A DNA stretch of 64,000 bases from Pseudoalteromonas sp. Scap06 (GTDB lineage: Bacteria; Pseudomonadota; Gammaproteobacteria; Enterobacterales; Alteromonadaceae). Under the pieces are notes generated by a model. It was not told where the DNA came from. It worked only from the letters and a program-made list of their open reading frames with translations, and did not search any database. Location of the stretch: positions 2,100,501-2,164,500 of the forward strand of contig NZ_CP041330.1 in the NCBI RefSeq assembly GCF_013394165.1. The letters run 5' to 3'. Below, in pieces: positions 16,040 through 34,014 of the stretch. Within the stretch, counting starts at the first letter, position 1. Each line of letters starts with the position of its first letter. The translations under genes were made by a program, and so were the position numbers.

Positions 16040-16672
16040 ATGAATAAAGAAAAACGTCACCAAATACTTACTCGCTTACGCGATGACAATCCACATCCTG
16101 AAACGGAGCTTGAATATTCAAGCCCATTTGAGTTGTTAGTTGCCGTAACGCTCTCAGCACAAGCCACCGATGTTGGGGTAAATAAAGCCACTCGTAAATT
16201 ATTTCCGGTTGCTAATACGCCACAAGCCATTTTAGATATTGGCCACGACACACTACGTGATTACATAAAAACCATCGGCTTATTTAATTCAAAAGCAGCC
16301 AATGTATATAAAATGTGCCAAATATTGGTAGATCAGCATAACGGTGAAGTGCCAGAGAATCGTGAAGCTCTAGAAGCCCTCCCAGGCGTAGGTCGTAAAA
16401 CTGCTAACGTAGTATTAAATACAGCCTTCGGCTGGCCGACAATCGCTGTAGATACGCACATATTCCGTGTTTCTAACCGTACTAAACTTGCCATGGGTAA
16501 AGACGTGGTTGCGGTTGAACAAAAACTCGAAAAAGTGATCCCCAAAGAATTTAAAGTCGATGTACATCACTGGCTCATTTTGCATGGTCGCTATACCTGT
16601 GTTGCCAGAAAACCTAAATGTGGCAGCTGTATTATTGAAGATTTGTGTGAGTTTAAAGAGAAAACAGAGTAA
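16040..16672 (+). CDS. nth: Endonuclease III, DNA glycosylase/AP lyase
   Basis: Nth excises oxidised pyrimidines and cleaves the abasic site in base excision repair. The 210-residue protein is full length, with the helix-hairpin-helix LPGVGRKTANVV containing catalytic K120, D138 in AVDTH, and the 4Fe-4S loop C-x6-C-x2-C-x5-C at the end. The gene is intact, yet its last 246 bases (from codon F130) are duplicated five times downstream, each copy starting at the same point. I infer that its present 3' end was delivered by the most recent integrated element and that the 5' part is the resident chromosomal piece. Confidence 0.98.
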   Translation: MNKEKRHQILTRLRDDNPHPETELEYSSPFELLVAVTLSAQATDVGVNKATRKLFPVANTPQAILDIGHDTLRDYIKTIGLFNSKAANVYKMCQILVDQHNGEVPENREALEALPGVGRKTANVVLNTAFGWPTIAVDTHIFRVSNRTKLAMGKDVVAVEQKLEKVIPKEFKVDVHHWLILHGRYTCVARKPKCGSCIIEDLCEFKEKTE

Positions 16673-16702
16673 TTAAAGCCTGCTTTGTGCCATGAGCAGA
16701 CA

Positions 16703-16804
16703 GTGGTAACGCCTCGTTAAGAGGCAATAAAATAGTTGGCTAAAATTAAGCGACGAAGGAGCAAAAGCCAACTGTTTTTTGTCCTTTTAAACGACTTGTT
16801 ATAC
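16703..16804 (-). repeat. Probable integron attC site
   Basis: Read leftward, this starts GTATAACAAGTCGTT and ends TTAACGAGGCGTTACC. The ends are imperfect inverted repeats (TAAC and TCGTT paired with AACGA and GTTA), and inside is an exact pair AGTTGGCT/AGCCAACT (16766-16773 and 16734-16741). The layout of R'', L'', L' and R' boxes, the roughly 100-base size and the terminal GCGTTA are those of an attC. The stop codon of the adjacent gene lies inside the first box, as is common in cassettes. The R boxes deviate from the strict consensus. Confidence 0.6.
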
Positions 16805-17881
16805 GAATTTACCACTCAATTCAATAAGATAATCAGCAAAGCCATCTCTATCTTCTTCAAGACACAAGCCCATCTCATCTAAAAAGGTTACTATTTTTTC
16901 TTTGCTGCCTAGTTTTGCAGCTAGGATATGGTAAAGGTAGAAAATAGATATACCTTTACTCGCGGTATCACCCTCTGCATTAATATCATTAGCTCTAAGA
17001 AAAATATTTTTTTCATTCTCATTAATAGTTAAAATGAGGTCTGATATTTTTGTAATATTAAAATACTGCAAATATTTGAGGTGTCGGCTAACAAATTCTG
17101 AATCTAGCTCTTTCAAATTAAATTTAGCTTGTTCAGCAACTTTTTGATCCAATTTATTTACAACGTCACTCTTATTTAAGAACTCTAAAATTGTGACTAA
17201 ATCAATTTCCACTTCATCAGGTTTGGAGCTAATATTTTCTTCTACGTCATGTTGGTAGTTGGTTAACTCTTCTTTAATCTTAACAAAGCCTTCATCTGCT
17301 AATTCTAAAAGACTTGCTAATCTAGAAAATTGCCTTCTTACATGCTTAGGTACTTCAATTGTTGATTTGTATCCAATGTCATGCTCAATTTCAGCCCACG
17401 CGTGTTGCAGCACGGAGCGAATTTGAATTTCAACTTTTCTTCCGTTAAATCTTTGGTACTCTACCAACCGCTCTCTGTCTTGTGAAATTGAAACAACATA
17501 GTGCAATGATAAGTAGCCAAATCTATCAGGGTCTAAAGATGCTCTTTTATCGATAGAGTTTTTTGCATCGATAGCAAAATTATCTTCAATAATTTTAGCT
17601 ATTTTATCCACCTCATCAGAATAATTTGAAATTATCCTGATTCCAACGATATCTGTAATGTCCTGTATAGAAGTATATTTATCTTTATTGGTTACTTTTC
17701 GAGAGAGGCTATTCCTGTCTTTAACCCTTGATGATACAGAATGAGGCACAATAGCTTCATTGCTTAATAGAGCCGAGATCAGAGCGACCATTGATTGAGC
17801 CATTTCTTCATTTAGAGAAAGTTGCTCATCATACTCATCAATGATTTTAGATAATGACACTGTAGTTCCTTATTCGTATAA
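16710..17881 (-). mobile_element. Probable single integron gene cassette
   Basis: From the G^TTATAC junction (17882/17881, on the bottom strand) to the G^TTACC junction (16710/16709), this contains one gene, a very short leader and a trailing attC-like site, which is the standard cassette plan. A partial second attC-like 3' half precedes the gene. No integron integrase is in the window, so this is either a stray cassette or cargo acquired before the element entered nth. Confidence 0.5.
16799..17860 (-). CDS. RelA/SpoT-domain protein, putative alarmone synthetase
   Basis: A 353-residue protein whose first ~200 residues match the (p)ppGpp synthetase fold: SSRVKDRNSLSRK (about 42-54), DITDIVGIRI (67-76), FGYLSLHYVV (about 113-122) and VEIQIRSVLQHAWAEIEHDIGYK split across 142-164. 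The usual basic residue after GY in the G-loop (GYRS/GYKS) is Leu here. The rest is helical and unassigned. It has no HD hydrolase, TGS or ACT domain, so it is a stand-alone enzyme like small alarmone synthetases or toxic SAS proteins, some of which act in phage defence. A defence role is inference from mobile context. No separate antitoxin gene is visible. Confidence 0.75.
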   Translation of the reverse strand: MSLSKIIDEYDEQLSLNEEMAQSMVALISALLSNEAIVPHSVSSRVKDRNSLSRKVTNKDKYTSIQDITDIVGIRIISNYSDEVDKIAKIIEDNFAIDAKNSIDKRASLDPDRFGYLSLHYVVSISQDRERLVEYQRFNGRKVEIQIRSVLQHAWAEIEHDIGYKSTIEVPKHVRRQFSRLASLLELADEGFVKIKEELTNYQHDVEENISSKPDEVEIDLVTILEFLNKSDVVNKLDQKVAEQAKFNLKELDSEFVSRHLKYLQYFNITKISDLILTINENEKNIFLRANDINAEGDTASKGISIFYLYHILAAKLGSKEKIVTFLDEMGLCLEEDRDGFADYLIELSGKFV

Positions 17882-17950
17882 CAATTTAATAGTGCGCTCA
17901 TCGCGCATATTTCTGACGACGCTACGCTCATTTTTCTGCATAATATAGTT
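17876..17950 (-). repeat. attC-like 3' half upstream of the RelA/SpoT-domain gene
   Basis: Read leftward it ends in TTAAATTGTTATACG just before the gene's ribosome-binding region (AAGGAA). The GCGCACTATTAAATTGTTATAC end resembles an attC L'-R' half. A partly similar stretch (CGCTCATTTTCGTG, about 18031-18050) lies further out, but no convincing 5' half is seen. Confidence 0.35.
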
Positions 17951-18150
17951 TTAACAAATAAGCTAAGGTATTACTATCACTAAGTTTTCTAAAACTTTAA
18001 AAAAAGTTAAATAGAACAATATGCGCGCGTCGCTCATTTTCGTGAATATATGCGCAAAGCAGAGTTTGATCACCCAATTGACTTTTATATTATTCAATAT
18101 CAATGACAGGTTTTCGCTCAAAGCAGTCTTGAAAAAGTAAGTATTTTCGT
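17951..18150. other. AT-rich non-coding spacer
   Basis: No gene seen. It contains a GCGC-rich segment (TATGCGCGCGTCGC, about 18020-18034) that partly repeats motifs at 17893-17940. It ends at the conserved TCTAC box. Confidence 0.5.
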
Positions 18151-18180
18151 TCTACGTTCATTATATTTTGGCTGGCCGAC
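18151..18180 (+). repeat. Conserved junction box at nth copy 2
   Basis: TCTAC (18151-18155), 10 bases, then TTTTGGCTGGCCGAC. The upstream part is not nth sequence, yet it recurs at copies 3, 4 and 6; a likely recombinase recognition arm. Confidence 0.6.
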
Positions 18181-18412
18181 AATCGCTGTAGATACGCACA
18201 TATTCCGTGTATCAAACCGTACCAAGCTTGCTATGGGTAAAGATGTGGTTGCGGTTGAGCAAAAACTCGAAAAAGTGATCCCCAAAGAATTCAAAGTCGA
18301 TGTACATCACTGGCTCATTTTACATGGGCGCTATACCTGCGTTGCCCGTAAACCAAAATGTGGCAGCTGTATTATTGAAGACTTGTGTGAGTTTAAAGAT
18401 AAGACTGAGTAG
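18167..18412 (+). pseudogene. nth 3'-end duplicate, copy 2
   Basis: 246 bases, collinear with nth codons 130-210 plus stop, without insertions or deletions. By my count it differs from nth at 20 positions, and only one change alters the protein (E to D near the end). K120 lies outside it, so it cannot be an active glycosylase. The almost purely synonymous divergence shows that this sequence evolved under selection as a functional nth end until recently, probably in another lineage. Confidence 0.9.
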
Positions 18413-18421
18413 ATTTGAGTC

Positions 18422-18468
18422 AAGATCAAAGTTATACATGTTATACATGTTATACTCTGATCTTTTTT
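18422..18468. terminator. Bidirectional terminator-like hairpin
   Basis: AGATCA (18425-18430) and TGATCT (18458-18463) flank three repeats of GTTATACAT-type sequence and are followed by a T run. It separates the nth copy from the convergent lipoprotein gene. Confidence 0.55.
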
Positions 18469-18535
18469 AGCATTGAAATATCAGTTTATTGAGCAAATAA
18501 ATCTTTTAGCCGCAATATTCTAAAGTTAGTTTGAG

Positions 18536-19162
18536 CTATCCCCTTTTATCATCATATTTAAACGCTTTGTATTCCGATCCGCTCTTTAATCCACAAGAAT
18601 GATTATGTGTATTCTTAAAAGTAATTGGAATCGTTTGGCCACAAGGAAGAACATTATAATTGGGTGGTAAATTTGGTCCACACTTTTGAACATCAAAGTG
18701 CAAGTGAGGGCCCCCACTTTGTCCGGTATTACCACTTAATCCTATAATATCTCCCGCTTTTACTTTATCTCCTTTTGATACAAAAGAACCATTTTCTGTA
18801 AGGTGGAAATATCTTGCTACTGAGCCATCATCATGTTGAATAAAAATATAATTTTCTTCCAAATCTTTATTATTTCCATCTTCAAAAACTTCTCGAACAC
18901 TGACGACCTCCCCCTCTCTAGATGCAACTATCTTAGTACCAATAGGCATTACAAAATCTATTGCAAAAGTACCTACCCCATTATTCGAGGCGCGATAATG
19001 CTCTGTAGCAGCATAAACACTTCTTGTGGTGCCCACTTCGTATGGTAACAAATAGACTGAATTTTCTAGATCTGGAAATACAGTGCAATCGACCACCGGC
19101 TTAGAGCAAGCAACTAAAGAAATAGGAATTAATAAAGAACTTACAACAAATTTTTTCATCAA
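18536..19162 (-). CDS. M23-like peptidase lipoprotein
   Basis: A 208-residue protein with a lipoprotein signal (lipobox LVAC, Cys about residue 19) and an M23/LytM-type beta domain: FAIDFVMPIGTKIVASREGEVV, KVKAGDIIGLSGNTG, and the zinc/catalytic HxH in GGPHLHFDV (about 156-158). The family cleaves peptidoglycan cross-links in the envelope. The first zinc His of the usual HxxxD motif is not in its normal place before IDF (the nearest His is in EHYRAS), so activity is uncertain; it may be a structural or activator-type LytM protein. It is the sole gene of its module, oriented against nth. Confidence 0.75.
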   Translation of the reverse strand: MMKKFVVSSLLIPISLVACSKPVVDCTVFPDLENSVYLLPYEVGTTRSVYAATEHYRASNNGVGTFAIDFVMPIGTKIVASREGEVVSVREVFEDGNNKDLEENYIFIQHDDGSVARYFHLTENGSFVSKGDKVKAGDIIGLSGNTGQSGGPHLHFDVQKCGPNLPPNYNVLPCGQTIPITFKNTHNHSCGLKSGSEYKAFKYDDKRG

Positions 19163-19276
19163 TACTTTCCTCTATAAAATGTATTAGTCGCTTAAAGTAC
19201 AACAAAGGTTTAAAGGTGTTAAAAATTAAACTACCAATCTGAGAAAAAGCAGATACCAAACAAAATTAGTTTTCAA

Positions 19277-19307
19277 TCTACTTTAATTACCTTTTGCCTG
19301 GCCCACA
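19277..19307 (+). repeat. Conserved junction box at nth copy 3
   Basis: TCTAC (19277-19281), 10 bases, then TTTTGCCTGGCCCAC. Same layout as at copy 2 with small base changes in the core. Confidence 0.6.
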
Positions 19308-19487
19308 ATCGCCGAAGACACCCATATCTTCCGCGTTTCTAATCGCACCAAGTTTGCCATGGGTAAAGACGTGGTCGCGGTTGAGCAACAACTCGAAAAA
19401 GTGATCCCCAAAGAATTTAAAGTCGATGTACTCCACTTGCTCATTATTCAAGGCCGTTACATGAGCACCGCCCGCAAGGTTAAATAG
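19293..19487 (+). pseudogene. nth 3'-end duplicate, copy 3
   Basis: An open frame of 65 codons (FAWPTIAEDTHIFRV...) ending in TAG. It keeps the nth frame but stops early: the four-Cys iron-sulfur loop is gone, and the tail reads MSTARKVK. Substitutions such as HHW to LHL affect conserved positions. This is more eroded than copy 2. Confidence 0.85.
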
Positions 19488-19585
19488 CGAACCACTAAAG
19501 TTGGTCAGAATCCCGTTACAGGCTCAAATTGCCTAGATATCTAAGCAAATCCATGCGCCTCACTTCATTTATGAGCACTAACCTC

Positions 19586-19670
19586 TGTATAAGAAAGGCA
19601 CTAATTTTTGGCTTCTAACGTCGGCTATACTAAAAGTCGACGTTAGAAATCTGTGCTCTTTTTTAGTAAA
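19586..19670. terminator. Strong inverted repeat, probable terminator
   Basis: TTCTAACGTCG (19613-19623) and CGACGTTAGAA (19638-19648) are exact reverse complements, flanked by a weaker GCAC/GTGC pair and followed by TCTTTTTT. A terminator is the simplest reading. It lies over 150 bases from the nearest stop codon, so another structural role is possible. Confidence 0.5.
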
Positions 19671-19801
19671 AATATCATGCTACGTTTAATCAATAGTAAC
19701 GGCTAATACCATGTTGATAATTTTGCGAAATAAACTAAATGAAATAAACTAAAATAGAACGACTATCTATCCCTTGTTTTATTCACTCTAAACTTGAACA
19801 A

Positions 19802-20812
19802 TTATTTAATCAATTTGTTATTATTTATCAAAAATTGTGTAACTGTATCAGCAAATTCTTCAGGTTGTTCTACCCATGTCCAATGCCCCGTTTGCTCTAA
19901 AAATTTAAGTGTTGCTGTTCCTTCTGGTAGCATTTTATAAAATCGATAAGCCATTGCTGGTGTAGTTTTCCAATCTTTACGTCCGTTAATAATTAAGGTT
20001 GGAATAGGAAAGTCTTTGAACATTTCTTCTTTAATAATAACGTCTTTTAAAGTGCCAGTAATTTTTACTTCTGGGTCTAAACCAGCCATATCAAAATATA
20101 CCTTGATATTTGAACCATCTCTTTTATCTCTTGAGCGGTATTTTCTTAATTTTGAGCGTTTTTCTGGGTCGTACCAATCAGACATATTACCGATGGCTCT
20201 GTTGTAAAAGGCTTTCATATACTCATGACTGCTTGTTAATGCGCCTTTTGCTCTAATCTCCTCTAGTTTCTCCCACTGTTGTGGAAAAAAAGTTTTTCTT
20301 AAGTACTTGGCGGCATCAACATTCATCTGTTGACTTAGTCCGTCAGCAGATGCGCTTAACATGATCAACTTCGCTACTCTGTTCGGGTAAGTTAATGCAT
20401 ATTGCACCGCTGGGATACCACCATATGAATGACCAGCTAGTACGAGTTCCGGTACATTCAAATGTTGGCGTAACGTTTCTATATCTTCAACAGTGATAGA
20501 TGGTGAGAACTTATCTTGAATCTCTCTTGTCGCTCTGCCTACACCAGTTTCATCAAAATATATAATTTGATACCCGTGTGGTTTTAAAAAGTCTAATGCT
20601 CCCCAAAATATGGTGCGAGAAGCACCGGGACCACCATTAATCATAACAATGGGAGTGCCTTCACCGTCTGCTTCATAGTAAATATGACCAAATTTACTTT
20701 TAACGAAGTTACCTTGACCGTAAGGTTTAGGTAAAGAGGTGTCGGACGCATTGGCTACCAGAACATTAATATGAAGTAAAAATAACAATGAGACAATAAA
20801 TGCTTTTAACAT
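19802..20812 (-). CDS. Secreted alpha/beta hydrolase, proline iminopeptidase-like
   Basis: A 336-residue protein with a signal peptide (residues 1-22) and an alpha/beta-hydrolase fold. Seen: the oxyanion-loop motif NGGPGAS, a nucleophile elbow GHSYGG, an acid in NGRKDWKT and a His in TGHWTW. The GGPG motif is typical of the S33 (prolyl aminopeptidase) group, but that group also includes esterases, so the substrate is open. It lies 41 bases after the serine hydrolase in the same direction, probably in one operon under the upstream ToxR-like regulator. Confidence 0.8.
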   Translation of the reverse strand: MLKAFIVSLLFLLHINVLVANASDTSLPKPYGQGNFVKSKFGHIYYEADGEGTPIVMINGGPGASRTIFWGALDFLKPHGYQIIYFDETGVGRATREIQDKFSPSITVEDIETLRQHLNVPELVLAGHSYGGIPAVQYALTYPNRVAKLIMLSASADGLSQQMNVDAAKYLRKTFFPQQWEKLEEIRAKGALTSSHEYMKAFYNRAIGNMSDWYDPEKRSKLRKYRSRDKRDGSNIKVYFDMAGLDPEVKITGTLKDVIIKEEMFKDFPIPTLIINGRKDWKTTPAMAYRFYKMLPEGTATLKFLEQTGHWTWVEQPEEFADTVTQFLINNNKLIK

Positions 20813-20853
20813 AAGTAATTCCTTTGAATAAATAATTTAAACAGTTGAATTGA

Positions 20854-22293
20854 TTAATCTAATTTTTGGTTAATCAATTCAATTGAGTAAGTTTGATCTT
20901 TACCCGTATTAACTTCAAAGTGGGTACCCTTATCGTCAAACTCAGTAATACCCACTTTATTTACCATCAATAGTCGCTGACCTTGTTCAGTGCTATAGAA
21001 AAAGACGGGCCATTGTTTAATGGCGGCTTTGTTTACGTTAAATGTGTTTAACCAACGCGAGTAATCAGTCATGCTATCCGTTAACAGGCATTTGTTTTCT
21101 TGGCAGCTTGCCGTACCTGTTAGGCTCGTACCGTTATTATTAATGTGATATTCAATGCTAGTTAATGTTTTAGGCTTGACGCTATCAATATAAAGGCCTG
21201 CTAACGCAAACACTAATTTATCAATTGAGGAAATCCAGCTACTATTGGATAAAAAGGCAATACTTAAATCATGCTCGGGATATATTGCTAGCATTGAGCG
21301 AGCTCCTGGTGTAGCTCCAGCATGATGATAAACTTTACGCCCATGTAAATCTTTAGCTATACGCCAACCAAAACCAACGTCAAAGTTTCGACTTGTTACG
21401 GGGTTTCCGTCTTGAGTTGTTGTTGGCGTAAACAGTAGTTGCTGGTAAGGTTTTTGAGTCTTTGCTTTTTTTAAGACTTCTCCCCCAAAAAAGGCTAAAT
21501 CACTTGCCGATGCATAAAGCCCTGCACCAAAAACGCTATACGACTTTTCGCCAAACGCAATTTCACTTCCCCCCATTTTACTTAGTTCATAAAGCCTTGA
21601 ACTGCGTTCATGAAGGTCGTTGATATTCTCTATCGCTGGTGTTTCGTTGCCTGACCAACGGGTAATAAAATTTTCAACACTCACTGTTAATGGTTGTTTG
21701 GTTATTTTCTCGTATAAAGCGCCAGCTAACGTATAGCCATGTGTAGAATAAAGATATTTAGTACCGGGGCGAGATAATAAGTCTCGATCCTTGAGTGTAT
21801 TAACTGCCTCAACAGCTGTATCGAAATGTGCGTCATAAATATCATAATCTTTTATTTGATAATGTGGCATTCCCGAAGTATGTGATAGTAATTGCCTTAC
21901 TGTGATGCTGTGATATTTTTTATTGAGTTCAGGATAATACTGTCCAATGCTGACATCAGGGTTTAGCTGATCATTATTGACTAATTCAGCTAACATGGTG
22001 GCGCCTATAACTTTTGACACACTGGCTAACCTGAACGTGGTATTAGGCTTGGCGGGTAGTTCATTTTTTATATCAGAAAAACCAGTGGCAACAGACGCAA
22101 CAAGTTTATCTTTATACACCACAGCCACTGAAAACCCGGGAACTCCAGTAACTTCATTCAAGCTAGTGAGCAGTTTTGTTAACTGCCATTCATAGCTTTG
22201 TTTATTATAGTGCTGAACTTCATCGTGATTTTTTGCTGTAGATTTTGGCATATTAATAATACATGCCAGTAAAATAAATAATGGTATTTTCAT
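20854..22293 (-). CDS. Beta-lactamase-fold serine hydrolase, class C type
   Basis: A secreted penicillin-binding-protein-like hydrolase of about 479 residues. The nucleophile motif is SVSK in FRLASVSKVIG, the second motif is YST in place of YxN, and the third reads HHAG (replacing KTG), a combination seen in esterase/peptidase-like members. I chose the ATG at 22293: it is preceded by GGAG at a good distance and gives a clean signal peptide (MKIPLFILLACIINM). An ATG seven codons earlier has no good Shine-Dalgarno. The C-terminal ~110 residues form a separate beta-rich region. It probably acts in the periplasm; substrate unknown. Confidence 0.8.
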   Translation of the reverse strand: MKIPLFILLACIINMPKSTAKNHDEVQHYNKQSYEWQLTKLLTSLNEVTGVPGFSVAVVYKDKLVASVATGFSDIKNELPAKPNTTFRLASVSKVIGATMLAELVNNDQLNPDVSIGQYYPELNKKYHSITVRQLLSHTSGMPHYQIKDYDIYDAHFDTAVEAVNTLKDRDLLSRPGTKYLYSTHGYTLAGALYEKITKQPLTVSVENFITRWSGNETPAIENINDLHERSSRLYELSKMGGSEIAFGEKSYSVFGAGLYASASDLAFFGGEVLKKAKTQKPYQQLLFTPTTTQDGNPVTSRNFDVGFGWRIAKDLHGRKVYHHAGATPGARSMLAIYPEHDLSIAFLSNSSWISSIDKLVFALAGLYIDSVKPKTLTSIEYHINNNGTSLTGTASCQENKCLLTDSMTDYSRWLNTFNVNKAAIKQWPVFFYSTEQGQRLLMVNKVGITEFDDKGTHFEVNTGKDQTYSIELINQKLD

Positions 22294-22362
22294 ATCATGC
22301 TCCTTTTTTTTCATTGAGCATGAGTTGTTAAAAAAGCGCGAGTTAATAAAGGTTATGAATGG

Positions 22363-23283
22363 TTATGCTGGGTTAGCAAGCGCCTTTAACACTGACCAGA
22401 TAGGGTCTTTAGCATATTCACGTTGCTGTTTATTTAAATACAATTTCCCAGATGACATTAACGATTCAATGCCATTCAATTGTGATTGTAATGCTTGAAG
22501 TAACGATGACGTTGATGACATAGAAAACGAACTAGTCCGTAATATTGTTGCGGTAGTTGGCTCTACTATGCTTAGCTTTATTGTCGTGTTGTTGTTTACT
22601 TCTATCACTTCAAAATAACTAATTAATGCAAGCCGATCTTTTCTTGCTTGTAATGGTAAGACTAACTCTTTTCGTTGCTTTGATAATATGAGTTGAAGAC
22701 GCTGTTCTTCATTTGCTTGGCTAAGCAAATCATTCCATGTTTGATAAATACTTAACGCATTCTCAGGCATTTCATTAAGGGGGGTATTACTCCATAGCGC
22801 AATCCGATTGTTACTTGTCGCTTTGTCATTATTCGTTGATTGAGTCACGTATATTAATATGATTATTGTCATTAACAGCGCCACAAACGTTATACCGAAC
22901 ACTTTTTTGTTTAACCGAGGAATTTTATCTGTGTGTACGTTGGGTGTCGGTTCAGGAACAAACGTTTGATCGATTGGCATGACCTCTCGCTCAATTAGTA
23001 ATCGGTACCCTTCCCCCCTTACCGTTTGAATTGAAAGGCCTTTTATTGTTGATTGCTCTAGTGACTTTCGTAAAACAAATACTCGCTGTTTTAAAGTGTC
23101 AGGACTAATAACAGTGTTAGGCCAAACACTTGTCATGAGCGTTTTATTTGATACAACGAGTTCTGGTGTTTGTGCCAGCGTGAACAGTAATTTAAAACTT
23201 AACGGATTTAAAGTCACTGATTGATTATCTTTAGTGACAACATATTTTATTTCGTCAAATTTTATCGTTTTACTCTCTGTCAT
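22363..23283 (-). CDS. ToxR/CadC-like membrane winged-helix regulator
   Basis: A 306-residue protein with an N-terminal OmpR-type winged helix (about 8-98; motifs LNPLSFKLLFTLA, ISPDTLKQRVFVLRKSL and IQTVRGEGYRL), a single membrane segment (about 129-148) and a periplasmic C-terminal domain without a recognised fold. The architecture is that of ToxR/CadC one-component sensors, which read an envelope signal and bind DNA directly. It is the first gene of the leftward trio and probably controls the two exported hydrolases beyond it. Confidence 0.85.
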   Translation of the reverse strand: MTESKTIKFDEIKYVVTKDNQSVTLNPLSFKLLFTLAQTPELVVSNKTLMTSVWPNTVISPDTLKQRVFVLRKSLEQSTIKGLSIQTVRGEGYRLLIEREVMPIDQTFVPEPTPNVHTDKIPRLNKKVFGITFVALLMTIIILIYVTQSTNNDKATSNNRIALWSNTPLNEMPENALSIYQTWNDLLSQANEEQRLQLILSKQRKELVLPLQARKDRLALISYFEVIEVNNNTTIKLSIVEPTTATILRTSSFSMSSTSSLLQALQSQLNGIESLMSSGKLYLNKQQREYAKDPIWSVLKALANPA

Positions 23284-23504
23284 GAGGGTTAATTCATCCT
23301 AAAATAACTCATATTATATGTTTCACTAAAATTGTATCAGCTCATCATCAGTGATGAATACAGTTAGGGTTAGCAATCCTGTTTTTTAGTCGAAACTTTT
23401 TTATCTTTAATTCATTAAGGTTTAATATTTCAATTGCTATAAACTTCTTATACCGAATTTGTTATAAATCGGTTAGATTTAAGTACAAGTAAGAATTTCA
23501 ACCA

Positions 23505-23534
23505 TCTACATAGCCACCTTTTGGCTGGCCTACT
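23505..23534 (+). repeat. Conserved junction box at nth copy 4
   Basis: TCTAC (23505-23509), 9 bases, then TTTTGGCTGGCCTAC. Same layout as at copies 2, 3 and 6, one base shorter. Confidence 0.6.
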
Positions 23535-23761
23535 ATAGCCGTGGATATCCATATATTTAGAATATCGAACCGTTCAAAATTGGCCACTGGTAAAATGTCT
23601 ATTTTGTGCAAATGCTGTTAAAAATAGTCCCTGCCGAATTAAAAGTGGACGTTCATCATTGGCTTATTCTGCACGGTCGTTATGCTTGTGTAGCCTGTAA
23701 ACCTATATGTGGTGCGTGCATCATTGAAAACTTGTGTGAGTATAAAGCTGAGACAGAATAA
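23520..23761 (+). pseudogene. nth 3'-end duplicate, copy 4
   Basis: 242 bases aligning to the whole nth 3' end but with a net four-base loss near the middle, causing a frameshift and an early TAA after about 36 codons. The iron-sulfur Cys region is still readable in another frame (tail ending AETE). It shows many more substitutions than copy 2. Confidence 0.88.
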
Positions 23762-23776
23762 TCTTTGTTTTCTACT

Positions 23777-24961
23777 TTAAACTTTAGATTCATTCACTCT
23801 AGACATATTTTGCTTATTTTCACGCTTCAATTTTCGGTACGCAGATGGACTATAACCCACTAATTTTTTAAACGCAGTATTGAATGTCGATTTTGAATTA
23901 AATCCGGCATCGAAGGCAATATTCGTAATTAATTTATCACTATTATCTAAAGCCTTTTTGGCTTCTTCGACTCGAAAACCATTAATAAATTGAAAAAATT
24001 TGGTGTTTAAAAATTGAGAGAGTGTTTCTGAAATATGGTTTTCAGTTTCAGATATGCATTCAGATAGATTTTTTAGCGATAAGTCATCTTGCAAAAACAG
24101 CTTATCTTTTTTCATTGCATGTTCAAGCTTTGACGCTATAAATTGCATTTTTTCAGTACTAAGTAATGCAGCTCTTGTTTGACTTTGAGACGGCTGACTA
24201 GTGTGAGGTATCCCTTTTTCAGAGTCAGTAAGAACTTTTTGGCTTAAAGCCTTATGGATAAAAATAGCCAAAGCTATAACCTCCAATATTGGCAGCACAA
24301 CACCAGAGCCATACCAGTGTATACCCAAGGCACCGAGTGAAAACTCAATGGCATACAATAACCATGTAGCCCCCCATATAAACAATATGGGCCTAAACCA
24401 CACCAATGAACTATGCTCTATTTCAGAAAAGCGCTCCATCAATTGTCGACGATGAACGTTATGAAGCTTTAAGGCTGCCACTAAATAAAAAAGCGTATAA
24501 AAAATAAAAACTGACGTAGTGAATAAACAGGTAAATACTGCAATTTTCCAAAGGTCAGGATCTCTCGTTGAAGGAGTGGCCAGCGCGAGCTTCTCTGCTG
24601 GAGTGATCATAAATATAAAAGGGACCATACCTAATAAAACAATAATAGGACCAGAGAGCGCTAATGTTTTAAGGCTTTTATTGGCGACTTTATCAGCTGA
24701 CATAGAGGCATGTGCATAATAATATAGAGCAGGCCCAAGTAATACACGAAGCGGAAACTGAAGACCTGCTATACCCGGAGCATAAATATATGCGCCAGAA
24801 TGAATAAATAGCTCCCCCGCTAAATGCACCATTAATAACAACAGTAAACCTTTCAGAAAAACATTTTGCTTTTGCTTTGGCCTTTTAAGAACATCAAGCA
24901 AAGCAATAAGTGTCATTCCTATCATGCTAGAATATAATATTGTCGGTAAAAGGTTAACCAT
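23777..24961 (-). CDS. AraC-family regulator with membrane sensor domain
   Basis: A 394-residue protein with about seven hydrophobic segments in the first ~235 residues and an AraC-type double helix-turn-helix at the end (about 275-375; second HTH with ITNIAFDAGFNSKSTFNTAFKK and YSPSAYRK). Membrane-embedded AraC proteins of this type are thought to sense lipophilic or envelope signals; the ligand is unknown. It is separated from the DUF4386 gene by 270 bases in the same direction and may or may not control it. Its 3' end lies 15 bases from nth copy 4. Confidence 0.85.
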   Translation of the reverse strand: MVNLLPTILYSSMIGMTLIALLDVLKRPKQKQNVFLKGLLLLLMVHLAGELFIHSGAYIYAPGIAGLQFPLRVLLGPALYYYAHASMSADKVANKSLKTLALSGPIIVLLGMVPFIFMITPAEKLALATPSTRDPDLWKIAVFTCLFTTSVFIFYTLFYLVAALKLHNVHRRQLMERFSEIEHSSLVWFRPILFIWGATWLLYAIEFSLGALGIHWYGSGVVLPILEVIALAIFIHKALSQKVLTDSEKGIPHTSQPSQSQTRAALLSTEKMQFIASKLEHAMKKDKLFLQDDLSLKNLSECISETENHISETLSQFLNTKFFQFINGFRVEEAKKALDNSDKLITNIAFDAGFNSKSTFNTAFKKLVGYSPSAYRKLKRENKQNMSRVNESKV

Positions 24962-25233
24962 CGAACTTACCTAAGATAAAAGATTTATAATTTCTTTTAA
25001 TTATAAATCTAAACTCTAACTAACACTACCTATTGTCAACTAAGTAGATTTATACTCACTAGCCTCTCCAGTAATTATTTGTGTCATTAGCTAAGCTAAT
25101 TCGTAATAAATAATAGGTGAAGTTAAGTACTTTTATTTCGATAAATAACTTCTGTGCTCTCCTAATTTCTTTATCTACTAATGTTGGGTCCATAGGAAAA
25201 AATAATACCCACCTTAATTAAATTGAAAATATA

Positions 25234-25905
25234 CTATTTTTTCGGACTATTTTCTAAATTAAAGCCTTTAACAAATAACCAAAATGGTAGTAACAACTCA
25301 AATAAAGCCCCTGGAAGGTATAACCATTGTCCGCCCAAATTCATCCCAAAAAAACCAAAAAGTATTTTTAGCAATAAAGCAAAATAGCCAATCATTCCTA
25401 ACACCGAAAATCCACGCGGTACAAGTCGGTATTGATAAAAGTTTGCGCATAGAACAAAGCCACATATTGCCAAAGGGATCATGCCCATTTGAAAGTCATA
25501 ATAGCGCTCAGCTCTAAGAACAGTCGCCATAGTGTGCAAGTAATCAACATTACTAACGGTCGTTTCAACGAGCTCCTTACTTATCCTCATCATTGACAAT
25601 AGAGCGACAGCACCTATTAGTAACATAACTGCTTCAACAAGCCTAAATGCTACATAGCAAACTGCAATACGCTCACTATATTGTTTGATAATGGGGTAAA
25701 TAATTATTGCCATCCCCACAACAGCCGCTGAATTTATGAACTCTAATAGCACTGCCGTGGTTACCGTAAGCTTATTAGCAAAAAGTTGCTCAAGGTAGTC
25801 CGGTGAACTAACCAACTCCGCAATGAGTGAACTAGCCGTCATGTATGAGAATGATGAAATTAGCCATAATACGCCCACTAAACGAGCAGCGGTTAAACTA
25901 GACAT
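25234..25905 (-). CDS. DUF4386-family membrane protein
   Basis: A 223-residue protein with six hydrophobic segments and the DUF4386 look (AARLVGVLWLISSFSYMT start, LLEFINSAAVVGMAIIIYPI, AFRLVEAVMLLIG). The function of the family is unknown; it is frequent among accessory genes. The frame starts ATG with a Shine-Dalgarno-like AAGGAAA upstream. Confidence 0.75.
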   Translation of the reverse strand: MSSLTAARLVGVLWLISSFSYMTASSLIAELVSSPDYLEQLFANKLTVTTAVLLEFINSAAVVGMAIIIYPIIKQYSERIAVCYVAFRLVEAVMLLIGAVALLSMMRISKELVETTVSNVDYLHTMATVLRAERYYDFQMGMIPLAICGFVLCANFYQYRLVPRGFSVLGMIGYFALLLKILFGFFGMNLGGQWLYLPGALFELLLPFWLFVKGFNLENSPKK

Positions 25906-26250
25906 AATGTGTTTCCTTAAAGTTATAAATATTCAAAGTTATTTCTTACCTTTTTTTGGTTTTTAACATTGATTATCGTTTTATAGTTAGGTTGGGCAAT
26001 TTAGCCATTTAGGCGCGCGTTGACGACCAAATGGGCCTATTCGAACGTATTATTTATTAAAATTGTTTTTTATTACTTCCTGTAGGTCATTATTATTTAG
26101 CCTTTTCAATACTCTATATAAACCGCTACACAACTATTGATGATATATATTTCAATATAGTTAATAAGTAATTGTGAGATGACTAGAATGAAGCACTCTT
26201 TGATATAAACTTAGGTCTAATCCAACTAACTATATCTCTCATTTATCAGC
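25906..26250. other. Non-coding spacer in element 4
   Basis: No gene seen. It holds an imperfect inverted repeat around 25998-26040 (GCCATTTAGG ... CCAAATGGGC) with a GCGCGCG centre, and then AT-rich sequence to nth copy 5. The DUF4386 promoter should be in the first part. Confidence 0.4.
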
Positions 26251-26257
26251 ACTATCT

Positions 26258-26425
26258 TTTAGTTGTGCCGACAATCAATGTAAAAAAGTGACCCCAAAAT
26301 AGTTCAAAGTGATTGTACACGACAGGCTCATTTTACATGGCCGCTACGTGTGTACTGCACGAAAGCCCAAATGTGGCAGCTGTATTATTGAAGATTTATG
26401 TGAGTTTAAAGATAAGACTGAATAG
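26258..26425 (+). pseudogene. nth 3'-end duplicate, copy 5
   Basis: Begins TTTAGTTGTGCCGACAATC, a decayed form of the core, then an internal deletion joins it to the KVIPKEF region. The last ~100 bases, including the iron-sulfur Cys segment and the terminal GATAAGACTGAATAG, still resemble copy 2 closely. Several stops interrupt the frame. Confidence 0.85.
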
Positions 26426-26708
26426 CTCCCACCTGTTAAGGTACGAAAGCGGACGTTAGCTTTGGCTTACCCAGTGTCAAGTTGCGACATAGCTGGCTTA
26501 AGTTGTGTCGATTTCCCCCCAAAAAAAGAACTGATAGGTAGCAAACTGATCTTTTAAATAAATTAACCACAAGATGTGCCTAGTAAACTTATAACGATTC
26601 ACTCACTTCTTTTAGCAGCTAAGTGTGCTCGTTGAATGGCTCAGGGGTTATGCTGGCGTAGTAACTGTCTTCAGTAAATTAATGTTACATCTATATTCTT
26701 GCAGGGGG

Positions 26709-27263
26709 TTATGAAGCAACCCCACTCTTGAACGATAAAAAAGCTAAATGTGCTGCCTTACCTGAACTGTAATTATCTAGATGACTCATCTTGTAACCTG
26801 CGTACAATAAACCTTCAAAAAAATAAAAAACCCAATCAACACAGAAGTGCTTACTTAATAACCCCTCATCTTTCGCAAGTTTTATCAATTCTCGTATCTC
26901 GTTATCTTGCTGTTGCATACGAACTTGAAGCTTTTCACTTTTCTGAAACATCTTCTCGAACTTTTGCAAAAAAGCGAATTCCTCGTATAACGGCAAAGTA
27001 TTTTCGAATACAAGCCTAATAGCATCCAATGAGTCTTTAGCTTTATTTTCAACGGACATATTTACTTCGTCAAAGCGGTCTAAACAATATAACGCAATCT
27101 CTTCTTGAAGCGCTTCCTTATGCTTAAATTGGCGGTACACCGTTGCTCTACCAACTTCAGCCCTTTTAGCCACGTCAACTAGCGTTGAATCCTCATTTTG
27201 AATAAACAGTTTTAACCCCGATTGAATAATTTTTTTTCTCGAATTATTTGTTCTTGCATCCAT
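26709..27263 (-). CDS. TetR/AcrR-family transcriptional regulator
   Basis: A 184-residue repressor with an N-terminal helix-turn-helix (about 9-55; STLVDVAKRAEVGRATVYRQFKHKEAL) and a C-terminal ligand domain without a recognised subfamily. It is divergent from the DUF418 gene across an 89-base gap holding two matching operator-like palindromes, so it probably represses both itself and that gene. The inducer is unknown. Confidence 0.88.
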   Translation of the reverse strand: MDARTNNSRKKIIQSGLKLFIQNEDSTLVDVAKRAEVGRATVYRQFKHKEALQEEIALYCLDRFDEVNMSVENKAKDSLDAIRLVFENTLPLYEEFAFLQKFEKMFQKSEKLQVRMQQQDNEIRELIKLAKDEGLLSKHFCVDWVFYFFEGLLYAGYKMSHLDNYSSGKAAHLAFLSFKSGVAS

Positions 27264-27267
27264 TTTA

Positions 27268-27285
27268 TGAGACAGCCTTGTATCA
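27268..27285. promoter_or_regulatory. TetR operator candidate 1
   Basis: Palindrome TGAGACAGCCTTGTATCA, of form TGA-N-ACA-N4-TGT-N-TCA, just upstream of the TetR start. It matches operator 2, whose centre is 35 bases away. Confidence 0.6.
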
Positions 27286-27302
27286 TCTATTAAGTTCCAT
27301 TA

Positions 27303-27320
27303 TGATACAGCAATGTCTCA
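27303..27320. promoter_or_regulatory. TetR operator candidate 2
   Basis: Palindrome TGATACAGCAATGTCTCA, the same TGA-N-ACA-N4-TGT-N-TCA pattern. The two sites are also near mirror images of each other, giving a larger symmetric region between the divergent genes. Confidence 0.6.
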
Positions 27321-27352
27321 AAAGTTAAAAATGAATTCTGTGGAGCAAGAGA

Positions 27353-28426
27353 GTGAATAGACTAATCGGTATTGACTTTGCAAGAGCGTTAGCGCTCTTT
27401 GGTATGGTTATTGTCAACTTTAAGTTAGCCATGAACGCCGATAATGGCACACCACAATTAATAGAGTTTGCGGCTCTATTCGAAGGTCGGGCTTCGGCTT
27501 TGTTTGTTATATTAGCGGGTATAGGTATTGCGTTTTTAACTAAAAAATGTGTTACCAGTGGATCACTTGAACACATCAAGCAAGTAAGAACCTCTTTGAT
27601 AAAAAGGTCTGTTTTACTACTTTTGATTGGCTTGGCTTTTACACCTATTTGGGAAGCCGACATCTTGAAATTCTATGCATTCTATTTTTTGATAGCTGCA
27701 TTATTATTTACTCTTAGCAGCAAGAAACTGCTCAGTGCATCTATCGGTTTTGTTTTTGCATTTCCATTAATGTGGCTATTCTTTGATTACGAAAAAGGAT
27801 GGGATTGGCTTGAGCTTAGTTATTCTGGTTTTTGGACAACTGAAGGAGTGATTAGACACCTTTTCTTTAATGGTTATCACCCAGTTTTACCATGGTGTGG
27901 TTTCTTGCTATTTGGCATATGGTTGGGTAAACAAGATTTATCCAATACTAATGTAAGGAAGTCTTTGTTTACATGGTCTTTAAGTATTTTACTTATTGTA
28001 GAAGCAAGCTTCTATATGCTGAGAATGTGGGCAGGAGATGACCCGTCTATTGGCATGTCAAAAGATGAAATTGAGTTTTTGTTAACCACGTCAATAATAC
28101 CGCCGTTGCCACAATATATGTTTTCAGCTGCAAGCTCTGCCGTTCTTGTTTTGCTGGTTTCTCTAAAACTAGCAAGTGTATTTCCTACCAACCGGTTAAT
28201 TGAGTGGCTAAGCAAAACTGGGCAGTTAACGTTAACTCTGTATGTAGCACATGTCATTATTGGCATGGGAATTCTTGAGGCAACTGGCTTACTCGTTAAT
28301 CAAACCATAGACTTGTCAATATTTTCCGCATTGGTTTTTTGCATAATTAGCATAATTTCCAGTGTGTTTTGGCTCAAGTATTTTAAACACGGGCCTTTAG
28401 AATGGATTTTTAAAAAATGCACTTAG
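27353..28426 (+). CDS. DUF418-family membrane protein
   Basis: A 357-residue polytopic protein starting with GTG and carrying the family hallmark GIDFARALALFGMVIVNF in its first segment. About nine hydrophobic segments follow, with the typical DUF418 end (LTLYVAHVIIGMG and FKHGPLEWIFK). Its function is unknown; family members occur next to regulators in many bacteria. It is the only cargo gene that reads in the same direction as nth. Divergent TetR gene and operators suggest repression by that regulator. Confidence 0.8.
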   Translation: MNRLIGIDFARALALFGMVIVNFKLAMNADNGTPQLIEFAALFEGRASALFVILAGIGIAFLTKKCVTSGSLEHIKQVRTSLIKRSVLLLLIGLAFTPIWEADILKFYAFYFLIAALLFTLSSKKLLSASIGFVFAFPLMWLFFDYEKGWDWLELSYSGFWTTEGVIRHLFFNGYHPVLPWCGFLLFGIWLGKQDLSNTNVRKSLFTWSLSILLIVEASFYMLRMWAGDDPSIGMSKDEIEFLLTTSIIPPLPQYMFSAASSAVLVLLVSLKLASVFPTNRLIEWLSKTGQLTLTLYVAHVIIGMGILEATGLLVNQTIDLSIFSALVFCIISIISSVFWLKYFKHGPLEWIFKKCT

Positions 28427-28568
28427 TAGGCCAAAACATTGTTTTAAAAAACTAAAACTATTGAGGCTGTTAGCTGACTGTTAGCTGTTTAATTAGGGTA
28501 AATAATGCTATGTCGATAGTAACAGTCAGGAAGTTAATAAAAGCATCCTATAGGTATTACCTTTTGCA

Positions 28569-28599
28569 TCTACTTTTATTATCTTTCGGCTGGCCGACT
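28569..28599 (+). repeat. Conserved junction box at nth copy 6
   Basis: TCTAC (28569-28573), 10 bases, then TTTCGGCTGGCCGAC. The core here is identical to that in the intact nth gene over CGGCTGGCCGAC. Confidence 0.6.
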
Positions 28600-28697
28600 C
28601 AAACCTTGATAAGTTTGCTATGGGTAAGAACCTTATTGAAGTAGAAAAGAAGCTCGAAAAAGTAGTGCCTAAAGAGTTTAAAGATAAAGTAGAATAG
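28585..28697 (+). pseudogene. nth 3'-end duplicate, copy 6 (outermost)
   Basis: 113 bases. The core TTCGGCTGGCCGAC is followed by a deletion of the VDTHIFRV segment, then codons aligning to the SNRTKLAMGKDVVAVEQKLEKVIPKEFK region (here diverged, e.g. LDKFAMGKNLIEVEKKLEK), then a second deletion and a terminal DKVE stop. If the model holds, this is the remains of the original chromosomal nth end. Confidence 0.8.
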
Positions 28698-31942: not shown

Positions 31943-32018
31943 TGGCGTCCCCAAGGGGATTCGAACCCCTGTTACCGCCGTGAAAGGGCGGTGTCCTAGG
32001 CCTCTAGACGATGGGGAC
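31943..32018 (-). tRNA. tRNA-Glu (TTC), copy 1
   Basis: Bottom-strand cloverleaf starting GTCCCCATCGTCTAGAGG, anticodon TTC in CCTTTCACG, CCA encoded. It is the last gene of the leftward Ala-Glu array. It is separated from copy 2 by a longer, different spacer containing a hairpin (AGAAAT...ATTTCT). Confidence 0.97.
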
Positions 32019-32198
32019 GCAGAAATTGGTTTGCAAATCACTGATTTGCTATTTCTGCGTAAGATGAGCCGAGCCTGTGAGGCGAATGGCATTATCTTCT
32101 CAGAAACATTTTCTGTGTCACTAGGACAACTGAAAGTTTAGACTCGATTCAGACGAGTTACTTAATAACACTGCACTTCACTATTAGAAATAAGTAAG

Positions 32199-32274
32199 TG
32201 GCGTCCCCAAGGGGATTCGAACCCCTGTTACCGCCGTGAAAGGGCGGTGTCCTAGGCCTCTAGACGATGGGGAC
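32199..32274 (-). tRNA. tRNA-Glu (TTC), copy 2
   Basis: Identical to the other tRNA-Glu genes; leftmost member of the 161-base periodic block. Confidence 0.97.
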
Positions 32275-32359
32275 ACTAAAAAGTGTCACTAGGACAACTG
32301 AAAGTTTAGACTCGATTCAGACGAGCTTTAATAACACTACCCTACTATATAATAGTAAG

Positions 32360-32435
32360 TGGCGTCCCCAAGGGGATTCGAACCCCTGTTACCGCCGTGA
32401 AAGGGCGGTGTCCTAGGCCTCTAGACGATGGGGAC
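32360..32435 (-). tRNA. tRNA-Glu (TTC), copy 3
   Basis: Identical gene, 161 bases from copy 2. The 85-base spacers on either side are also near-identical to each other. Confidence 0.97.
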
Positions 32436-32520
32436 ACTAAAAAGTGTCACTAGGACAACTGAAAGTTTAGACTCGATTCAGACGAGCTTTAATAACACTA
32501 CCCTACTATATAATAGTAAG

Positions 32521-32596
32521 TGGCGTCCCCAAGGGGATTCGAACCCCTGTTACCGCCGTGAAAGGGCGGTGTCCTAGGCCTCTAGACGATGGGGAC
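32521..32596 (-). tRNA. tRNA-Glu (TTC), copy 4
   Basis: Identical gene within the 161-base tandem repeat. Confidence 0.97.
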
Positions 32597-32681
32597 ACTA
32601 AAAAGTGTCACTAGGACAACTGAAAGTTTAGACTCGATTCAGACGAGCTTTAATAACACTACCCTACTATATAATAGTAAG

Positions 32682-32757
32682 TGGCGTCCCCAAGGGGATT
32701 CGAACCCCTGTTACCGCCGTGAAAGGGCGGTGTCCTAGGCCTCTAGACGATGGGGAC
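32682..32757 (-). tRNA. tRNA-Glu (TTC), copy 5
   Basis: Identical gene within the 161-base tandem repeat. Confidence 0.97.
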
Positions 32758-32842
32758 ACTAAAAAGTGTCACTAGGACAACTGAAAGTTTAGACTCGATT
32801 CAGACGAGCTTTAATAACACTACCCTACTATATAATAGTAAG

Positions 32843-32918
32843 TGGCGTCCCCAAGGGGATTCGAACCCCTGTTACCGCCGTGAAAGGGCGGTGTCCTAGG
32901 CCTCTAGACGATGGGGAC
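32843..32918 (-). tRNA. tRNA-Glu (TTC), copy 6
   Basis: Identical gene; right edge of the periodic block. The spacer to its right differs from the repeated spacers. Confidence 0.97.
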
Positions 32919-33060
32919 ACTAAAAAGTGTCACTAGGACAATTGATTAGTTAAACTCACATCCTGAGCTTTAAGGTAATGGCGTAATAGTACAAATAAAG
33001 ACTCGAGCTTTATGTGTTACGCTATTTTCTCGGTAAAACCGCCTTTAACTAAAAGTTAAG

Positions 33061-33136
33061 TGGCGTCCCCAAGGGGATTCGAACCCCTGTTACCGCCGTG
33101 AAAGGGCGGTGTCCTAGGCCTCTAGACGATGGGGAC
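33061..33136 (-). tRNA. tRNA-Glu (TTC), copy 7
   Basis: Identical gene; the first tRNA-Glu after tRNA-Ala in the direction of transcription. Confidence 0.97.
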
Positions 33137-33172
33137 ACAGAAAACTGCTACCCTAGGACAAACACTAAAAAT

Positions 33173-33248: not shown

Positions 33249-33304
33249 AACTTATTCAATACGCTCGGTGATAACCACGTCGTGTATCGCTTAGTGCGGG
33301 GCGC

Positions 33305-33972: not shown

Positions 33973-34014
33973 AGCGCCCCACAACAACGCAGCAATGTGG
34001 TGTTATTTAGATGC

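Follow-up and report, generated by a model that had tools for sequence, protein, structure and literature searches.

Staphylococcal cassette chromosome (SCC) elements use serine recombinases to enter the 3' end of a gene, rlmH, of which they rebuild a short terminal piece; they occur in tandem, and some lack recombinase genes. In icd of Escherichia coli, phage 21 and e14 restore a housekeeping enzyme with a long element-borne 3' end, by means of a tyrosine integrase and without arrays of cargo. Tandem accretion at a gene end is already known also for units without an integrase that are bounded by attachment (att) sites, the cis-mobilizable elements (CIMEs), according to the available text of a review of integrative and mobilizable elements (IMEs) (PMC5704250). 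The same text describes IMEs with site-specific serine recombinases as disrupting dispensable genes (PMC5704250), and the available part of another article describes the strand-biased circularizing integrative elements (SEs) of Vibrio, small elements of marine gammaproteobacteria that encode tyrosine recombinases (PMC9345347). Here we describe accretion at nth, the gene for endonuclease III, in Pseudoalteromonas sp. Scap06. In the 64,000 nucleotides analysed (the window; NZ_CP041330.1, positions 2,100,501 to 2,164,500), five displaced copies of the nth 3' segment lie downstream of the intact gene, parted by small modules of unrelated cargo genes, and in relatives the same gene carries larger islands with a gene for a large serine recombinase (LSR). 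That the accretion at nth is serial and site-specific is almost certain. Our preferred account, to which we assign a probability of roughly 60%, is that an nth-specific serine integrase acting in trans inserts the modules one after another, and that homologous recombination reshuffles the left nth end.

Like CIMEs and other accretion islands, the nth modules lack an integrase, are bounded by att sites and occupy a site of related, integrase-bearing elements. Unlike those of the CIME/ICESt1 type, the nth system involves a serine recombinase, a repeated gene end of 245-273 bp and up to eight displaced ends per locus, and its modules of 0.8-9 kb recur in near-identical form without a neighbouring integrase. 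Nor do the modules resemble CIMEs that decay while retaining both attL and attR, given that in Pseudoalteromonas the left junction of a small module is plain nth rather than the P' type of the islands, and that no LSR remnant was detected at E<=1e-3. The nth islands depart from SCC in exchanging the part of the enzyme that contains Asp138 and the iron-sulfur (FeS) region, and in having an att half-site that is translated. With integron arrays the locus shares ordered, small, unrelated cargo units of diverse function at a common recombination site; it differs in that the window array has no intI, the unit ends mostly carry the 17-bp arm, the site in nth is fixed and an nth fragment comes after every unit. 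As in other LSR integration systems, the LSR gene lies by the att site and attP comprises inverted half-sites around a short core, whereas the window modules and genome encode no LSR, whose use there would be in trans. Serine-recombinase IMEs and integrative plasmids likewise place the LSR by the att site, and two nth elements encode a Mob_Pre relaxase (G470) and a Rep_3 initiator (G069); unlike such IMEs, the nth islands rebuild their target gene. A long replaced gene end, which the initial annotation of the window had considered unusual in combination with the lack of an integrase, is shared with phage 21/e14 and so is not unique, and the nth system differs from that precedent in its serine recombinase and its arrays of cargo modules. 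Paired tyrosine recombinases such as those of the Vibrio SEs are absent from the nine window cargo proteins. Searches of the open PMC library turned up no title or abstract that presents nth as such an integration locus, and the available text of PMC5704250 and PMC12884075 does not mention the gene. What looks new is a serine integrase with a 273-bp replaced gene end, a translated half-site and recurrent, near-identical modules without an integrase.

The window genome comprises 4.13 Mb in two contigs. When it was searched with the 81 residues of Nth from Phe130 onwards, matches to the 3' segment at a significant level were confined to the array, and the single match elsewhere was weak (E 0.07). 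This confirms the initial annotation, made from the sequence alone, in its description of an intact nth and five 3'-segment copies separated by unrelated cargo. DNA repeats of the 245-nt segment at 92% and 68% identity are too long to have arisen by chance, and the displaced copies are more decayed the farther they lie from the intact gene, as expected if the newest module adjoins nth. The common starting point proposed for the copies holds for the core TTYGGCTGGC (codons 130-132), except at copy 4, where the decayed core reads TTTTAGTTGTGCCGAC; the annotation had attributed this decay to copy 5, in which the core is intact (TTTCGGCTGGCCGAC, 28584-28598) and about 31 bp directly 3' of it are deleted. 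It had also let the conserved block begin at FGWP, but an arm of 17 bp directly 5' of the core is conserved as well at modules 1, 2 and 5 (Table 1); this arm is diverged at copy 3 and unrecognisable at copy 4. From residue 1 to 209 the alignment of window Nth with E. coli endonuclease III (2ABK) contains no gap, so that the core (F130-G131-W132) falls between Lys120 and Asp138, which we take, on this numbering, to be the catalytic residues. The FeS motif PF10576 (residues 187-203) likewise lies 3' of the core.

The arrangement is widespread in the genus. A readable nth locus was obtained from 103 of 108 Pseudoalteromonas genomes, giving 104 loci in all as G034 contributes two; no intact locus was scored for G008, G010, G015, G064 and G091, in which it lies on another contig, is unlisted or was not fetched. 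Displaced nth ends are present in 41 of the 103 genomes, in 1-8 copies: 63 loci have none, 27 have one, eight have two, two have three, one has four, two have five and one has eight. Because many drafts end near nth these counts are lower bounds, and matches of 38-41% in G007 and G040 were excluded as paralogues. At empty sites nth is separated from the decarboxylase gene by 224 bp (G085), 526 bp (G087) or 596 bp (G005), with no module between them. In a pair of sisters, G076 has one module and G072 no displaced copy; on the displaced side the two are colinear at 97.8% for the 1676 bp that extend from the core as far as the decarboxylase, which places the insertion at the core. Comparison of the LSR island of G069 with the empty site of G005 also supports a precise unit. 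The survey of the nth-decarboxylase interval that the initial annotation had suggested thus recovered zero, one and several modules, with empty sites joining nth to the decarboxylase, and its idea of repeated tandem entry is borne out; neither a uniform arrangement nor differing start points were found, either of which it had named as contrary to that idea. Three or more nth 3' matches occur in 25 of 147 genomes sampled from the family (a count that includes split hits and possible paralogues; four genomes had no match), and G279, of another genus, has an array of three modules at nth. In G034, two complete nth loci (L144 and L145) lie on different contigs with downstream intervals of equal length.

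A half-site, ATCTACYTTNATTATCTTT plus core, marks the right junction of most modules, whose ends mostly share the 17-bp arm. Among 53 anchored displaced copies that start near the core there are 40 distinct arms, and across these the information content is near zero beyond position -17 and high from there to the core (ATCTACYTTNATTATCTTTYGGCTGGC). The half-site is found within three mismatches at 44 of 73 displaced copies, as opposed to 8 of 3000 windows drawn at random from these loci, and within five mismatches at 52 of 73 as opposed to 10 of 3000; it is thus typical, not universal. When the 108 genus genomes were searched for the pattern, 64 matches emerged in 42 genomes, compared with 15 for the reversed pattern. 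Nine of the 64 lie, by reading, away from nth loci, each of them with three mismatches, and all three matches of the window genome fall inside the array. Very probably, the arm is the half-site of an LSR family specific for nth. At L204 (G279) and L206 (G197), where the left end of the modules is of the LSR type, the displaced nth ends are preceded by a right arm of a second class (GGCACTAACCTGCTC...AATTATA...ATCAACGGCGATAATGCCGTA), which suggests that an integrase of different specificity uses this core as well.

Which recombinase might recognise this site? Scanning the fetched loci for the motif Y-x-R-x-S identified a 553-residue serine recombinase beside displaced nth ends. Within the genus it occurs at 76-100% identity in five genomes (G008, G015, G035, G069 and G070), the remaining matches not exceeding 38%, and every one of the five copies adjoins a displaced nth end, with its start codon about 50-70 bp from the core. 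Among 394 genomes of the order three have matches at E<=1e-60: G388, from another genus of the same family (67%), in which the gene lies by a displaced nth end, with roughly 65 kb between it and the intact nth; G470, from another family (54%), in which it lies by a displaced end in a 9.7-kb element; and G220 (37%), whose intact nth is on another contig. Three LSR homologues have the PF00239 Resolvase domain (E 7.5e-14, 1.2e-15 and 1.4e-18) and a reported PF13408 zinc ribbon, above cut-off in one of them; PF07508 was not reported in these three at E<=0.001, and NCBIfam gave a single weak, sub-threshold match, to XisF.

Intact nth in the islands has a divergent 3' end (about 60% amino acid identity, 273 bp) that begins FGW-LKDNEGRYF, and the corresponding DNA, GGCTGGC-TAAAAGATAATGAAGGTAGAT, is an inverted repeat of the arm. 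The island attP thus has two predicted inverted half-sites, of which one stands before the displaced end and the other lies within nth, translated in frame as the extra residues LKDNEGRY next to Asp138. A pattern search matched this inverted half-site, P', on the opposite strand at six loci, and comparison of attL with attR in G035 and G069 narrows the exchange point to CTGGC. Nth ends of the island type occur at E<=1e-36 in 10 of the 394 order genomes, G388 and G470 among them. At all five scored loci with such an end the displaced copy is closer than the intact one to the nth of the nearest relative (in G069, 93.8 versus 70.5), which is expected if the element brings a new end, and the whole left nth segment travels with the LSR-type islands, being 100% identical between G069, G070 and G105. 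Island cargo includes RND-pump (ACR_tran) and multicopper-oxidase genes in G105, which we read as metal resistance, together with a 207-residue Phage_integrase-family protein; the Rep_3 initiator in G069; and the relaxase and a type III restriction system in G470. Two big islands, in G105 (L046-L047) and G046 (L045), have an LSR-type nth end and no LSR and look like deletion derivatives. The former keeps about 300 bp from the right end of a unit like module 1 of the window, whose own right-terminal 300 bp or so it matches at 95%, and the latter runs into a complete module of the G018 type.

Between nth ends we counted 71 core-to-core intervals, 66 of them below 10 kb (0.83-9.0 kb, median 2.15 kb), and the removal by hand of 15 near-duplicates left 51 non-redundant modules. 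Among the 25 of 119 Pfam families listed for 107 cargo proteins, the most frequent are AraC-type regulators (10), beta-lactamase fold (6), Trans_reg_C (6), DJ-1/PfpI (4) and BD-FAE (4); seven PADLOC models match the cargo, each in one protein. The first module of G102 (L041) stands apart, with 9 kb and eleven open reading frames on one strand against the usual one to three genes, and G081 (L139) and G001 (L090) have a 3.9-kb cargo block in common, at 88% and in opposite orientation.

Judged by sequence comparison, the small modules are mobile though without an LSR. Between genera, module G279_3 matches G100_1 at 99.8% over 2081 bp where the 5' parts of nth are 70.3% identical, and in 16 of 20 pairs, hand-picked from a larger comparison, module identity exceeds nth 5' identity; examples are G050_1/G102_5 (95.9 vs 80.9), G000_5/G102_3 (94.0 vs 83.0), G036_1/G043_1 (88.9 vs 72.7) and G012_2/G075_8 (92.2 vs 77.9, the decarboxylase being at 80.7). 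The reverse holds for G012_1/G077_1 (76.6 vs 84.5), G004_1/G039_2 (71.2 vs 77.6), G039_3/G049_1 (88.5 vs 90.4) and G011_2/G086_T (81.1 vs 85.9). Two window modules also recur elsewhere, module 2 in G001 (95.5%) and G025 (83%), and module 5 in G105 (99.7%), G100 (98.8%) and G102 (94.0%).

Where do the mobile units begin and end? On the right of G279_3/G100_1 the sequences diverge immediately past the core, while on the left the final 120 bp or so of nth are near-identical and the earlier part is not. The right boundary lies at the core, less cleanly, in other pairs from unrelated hosts (G050_1/G102_5, G000_2/G001_1), whereas related hosts (G000/G100/G105, G018/G076, G027/G029) have the right segment in common in whole or in part. 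On the left, it is the stop-proximal part of the nth segment alone that stays with shared cargo. In random genome pairs, nth 3' identity is flat, at about 73-86% per bin, for nth 5' identities of 65-90%, from which we conclude that shuffling of nth 3' ends occurs genus-wide. Since the terminal part of nth has a conserved baseline of 84-86% in any case, the tail's apparent travel with the cargo counts for less, except in the best pair, G279_3/G100_1. We read the boundaries as site-specific joining at the core combined with recurrent homologous recombination within nth. This conclusion rests on the alignments rather than on the binned boundaries, in which starts were extrapolated for partial matches and rows such as G000_5, G100_2, G105_2 and G068_1 are shifted. 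Campbell (homologous) integration as the primary event is disfavoured, as the modules that are most clearly shared have right segments whose divergence sets in at the core, and the comparison does not support travel of the whole left segment with small-module cargo. That all small modules entered with an LSR-type end and were later converted is at odds with the left tails in Pseudoalteromonas, which are nearest ordinary nth; two modules of G279 are possible instances.

Table 1. Features of the nth locus in the window (window coordinates; amino acid percentages refer to the 3'-segment query)
Feature	Position	Strand	Description
Intact nth (endonuclease III)	16040..16672	+	210 aa, Pfam HhH-GPD; 5' part host, 3' part from core onward replaceable
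Core TTCGGCTGGC within intact nth (B.B' type site)	16427..16436	+	between K120 and D138
Module 1	16673..18166	.	RelA/SpoT-domain protein 16799-17860 (-)
P half-site + core, module 1	18150..18175	+	1 mismatch to consensus
Displaced nth 3' end, copy 1	18167..18411	+	complete, 99% aa
Module 2	18412..19292	.	M23 peptidase 18536-19162 (-)
P half-site + core, module 2	19276..19301	+	2 mismatches
Displaced nth 3' end, copy 2	19293..19537	+	80% aa, in-frame TAG
Module 3	19538..23519	.	alpha/beta hydrolase 19802-20812 (-), beta-lactamase-fold protein 20854-22314 (-), Trans_reg_C regulator 22363-23283 (-)
P half-site + core, module 3	23504..23528	+	arm diverged
Displaced nth 3' end, copy 3	23520..23762	+	71-72% aa, frameshifted
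Module 4	23763..26257	.	AraC-family regulator 23777-24961 (-), DUF4386 protein 25234-25905 (-)
Displaced nth 3' end, copy 4	26258..26425	+	73% aa (query residues 30-81), core decayed, internal deletion
Module 5	26426..28584	.	TetR 26709-27263 (-), DUF418 protein 27353-28426 (+)
P half-site + core, module 5	28568..28593	+	0 mismatches
Displaced nth 3' end, copy 5	28585..28697	+	66% aa (query residues 12-46), most decayed, 3' side truncated
Orn/Lys/Arg decarboxylase (PF01276)	28981..30903	+	flanking gene defining filled vs empty sites

Intact nth is preceded by rsxE. The nine cargo proteins of the window include none with a recombinase Pfam match at E<=0.001. Downstream, at 31943-35275 of the window, seven tRNA-Glu genes form one run and seven tRNA-Val genes another, with a tRNA-Ala in between.

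How might modules without an integrase gene accumulate at nth? We envision nth as the attachment gene for a family of mobile elements, whose LSR would join the element site to the core TTYGGCTGGC, between the codons for Lys120 and Asp138. LSR islands would carry their own 273-bp nth 3' end, so that the gene is rebuilt and the old end moved downstream. Small modules, by contrast, would be non-autonomous and moved in trans by an LSR of the nth-specific family, a module circle carrying the arm, the core and ordinary nth. The left junction of a small module is ordinary nth, a usable target; integration would thus regenerate the target, and modules would pile up with the newest by nth. Homologous recombination within nth, through allele exchange and through loss of modules between direct repeats, might then reshuffle the left segment, and as displaced copies decay, old modules would become harder to lose. 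We hold it slightly more probable than the opposite that an LSR acts in trans on modules devoid of one. This step is the weakest point of the scheme: an LSR is absent from the window genome, circles were not seen, the module site would combine one half of attP with one half of attB, and the data do not show that small modules replace the nth end.

Several results weigh against integration in trans. A module circle would hold P.B' rather than P.P', and serine integrases are not known to join such a site to attB with efficiency. The nth-associated LSR has no close homologue in the window genome (E<=1e-8) or in 103 of the 108 genus genomes, so trans action needs helpers that are transient or have been lost; the initial annotation's statement that no integrase is encoded accordingly stands for the window array and genome and fails for relatives, in which the integrase-bearing element with matching junctions that it had proposed to look for does exist, with a serine recombinase. 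The circular forms that it had likewise proposed to look for were not seen in plasmid or viral records. No recognisable half-site (more than five mismatches) was found at 21 of 73 displaced copies, and in G279 and G197 the LSR-type nth ends are paired with a different right arm. In most pairs only part of the left segment is inherited together with the cargo, and small-module left tails in Pseudoalteromonas are nearest to ordinary nth, not to the LSR-type end. Of the three LSR-less modules of G279, those of 2.1 and 6.0 kb do have the LSR-type left end, together with the different right arm; the existence of the 2.1-kb one speaks for the preferred account. When 25 loci with ordinary ends were scored against the nearest relative, the displaced copy was closer in seven (G025, G039, G043, G050, G076, G100 and G103) and the intact one in eight, with ten ties; 11 further loci with partial copies were left unscored. 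There is no overall sign that small modules replace the nth end, and the earlier interpretation that each module brings its own end finds no general support, in distinction from tandem entry itself. Finally, an integron integrase is encoded beside nth in G021.

Plasmid records contain no LSR relative above 60% identity (18 records matched), and of the 68 that match the LSR-type nth end two do so at 60-80% and 66 below 60%. Viral contigs yielded no LSR; a 23-kb IMG/VR fragment (L218/L219) has the LSR-type nth 3' end as its first bases and encodes phage terminase, portal and tail-tip proteins, with no Resolvase-family match in the fragment. Prophages, then, probably use nth as well. Twelve phage records match ordinary nth at 39-65% identity, two of them annotated as nth.

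Could the small modules instead be decayed LSR islands, remnants of the CIME kind whose own LSR was deleted and whose nth end was reconverted, with nothing acting in trans? The half-site common to islands and modules would fit, as would the two big LSR-less islands of G105 and G046, which resemble deletion derivatives, and accretion beside decayed CIMEs is described in the available text of the IME review (PMC5704250). Yet, apart from the LSR loci themselves, none of the fetched genus loci has an LSR remnant at E<=1e-3, the weaker matches (E 0.86 and 0.93, in G096 and G099) both lying within nth; a cargo reading frame lies within about 500 bp of the arm, the position of the LSR in islands; LSR-less modules are near-identical across species and genera; and the Pseudoalteromonas left tails are not of the LSR type. 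We regard this explanation as unlikely. Spread by homologous recombination alone, through transformation or conjugation between nth repeats after ancient site-specific events, would account for the gradual left boundaries inside the 245-bp segment, for nth 3' ends shuffled genus-wide independently of the 5' part and for the absence of overall end replacement; the related hosts in which the right segment is wholly or partly shared also fit it. Crossovers, however, would be spread over 245 bp, whereas the right boundaries of G279_3/G100_1, G050_1/G102_5 and G000_2/G001_1 lie at the core, and the 17-bp arm is conserved while the sequence beyond it is not, which leaves exchange between repeats an improbable sole cause.

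A second recombinase, tyrosine or serine and perhaps an integron integrase, might move the small modules, the LSR islands sharing the site by convergence or capture. Beyond the lack of an LSR in the window genome and the different right arm at the same core in G279 and G197, the Phage_integrase-family protein of the G105 island could be such an enzyme. Directly after nth, G021 encodes an N-terminally truncated integron integrase (L136:17576-18226; TIGR02249, 318 bits, cut-off 265), the one intI flagged at nth by a regex motif scan of the fetched loci. In module 1, just past intact nth (window 16700-16815), the bottom strand folds into a hairpin (z -2.5) that we take to be attC-like, and the RelA/SpoT cargo of this module may once have been an integron cassette. 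Together the G021 integrase and the hairpin keep a second recombinase in play, but the G021 locus has no displaced nth end, the hairpin (one fold examined) lies inside the module away from the unit boundary, and the half-site motif is common to islands and small modules, with its inverted partner in the islands; on balance we doubt that such an enzyme is responsible. Tandem segmental duplication or misassembly of nth can practically be dismissed. In G045 (L071), exact repeats of module and tail pieces (905 and 1381 bp at 100%), separated by partial nth ends, could be a recent duplication or a misassembly; elsewhere cargo is unrelated between most modules, the arrangement recurs with differing cargo in 41 of 103 genomes, several of them in two contigs (G000, G100, G102), and the G076/G072 pair of filled and empty sites refutes an artefact.

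Taken furthest, the scheme would make the locus an analogue of the integron that works with a serine integrase: a chromosomal platform for cassettes, found throughout the family and built on half of a DNA-repair gene. We consider this generalisation possible rather than probable. Each cassette would have a single integrase half-site and an nth 3' end (P.B'), and its recombination with the chromosome (B.B') would yield the same two site types, so that the reaction is closed and reversible. Arrays could then grow and shrink without limit, with the integrase supplied by visiting phages, plasmids or IMEs, and these helpers would hide their second half-site in the repaired enzyme as a translated insertion.

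For Pseudoalteromonas, these findings make nth a gene-capture locus, occupied in at least 41 of the 103 genomes examined, and the locus is active beyond this genus, with LSR-less modules in at least one related genus (G279) and LSR islands in two. Its arrays hold dozens of cargo types and constitute an ordered record of gene acquisition. The islands provide a candidate for a site-specific serine integrase, for which attP and an attB within a housekeeping gene can be predicted, and present a DNA-repair enzyme whose Asp138-bearing half is exchanged, a putative integrase binding site being translated as an insertion next to that aspartate. Movement of the small modules in trans, if true, would go against the expectation that a serine integrase requires a full attP and works in one direction.

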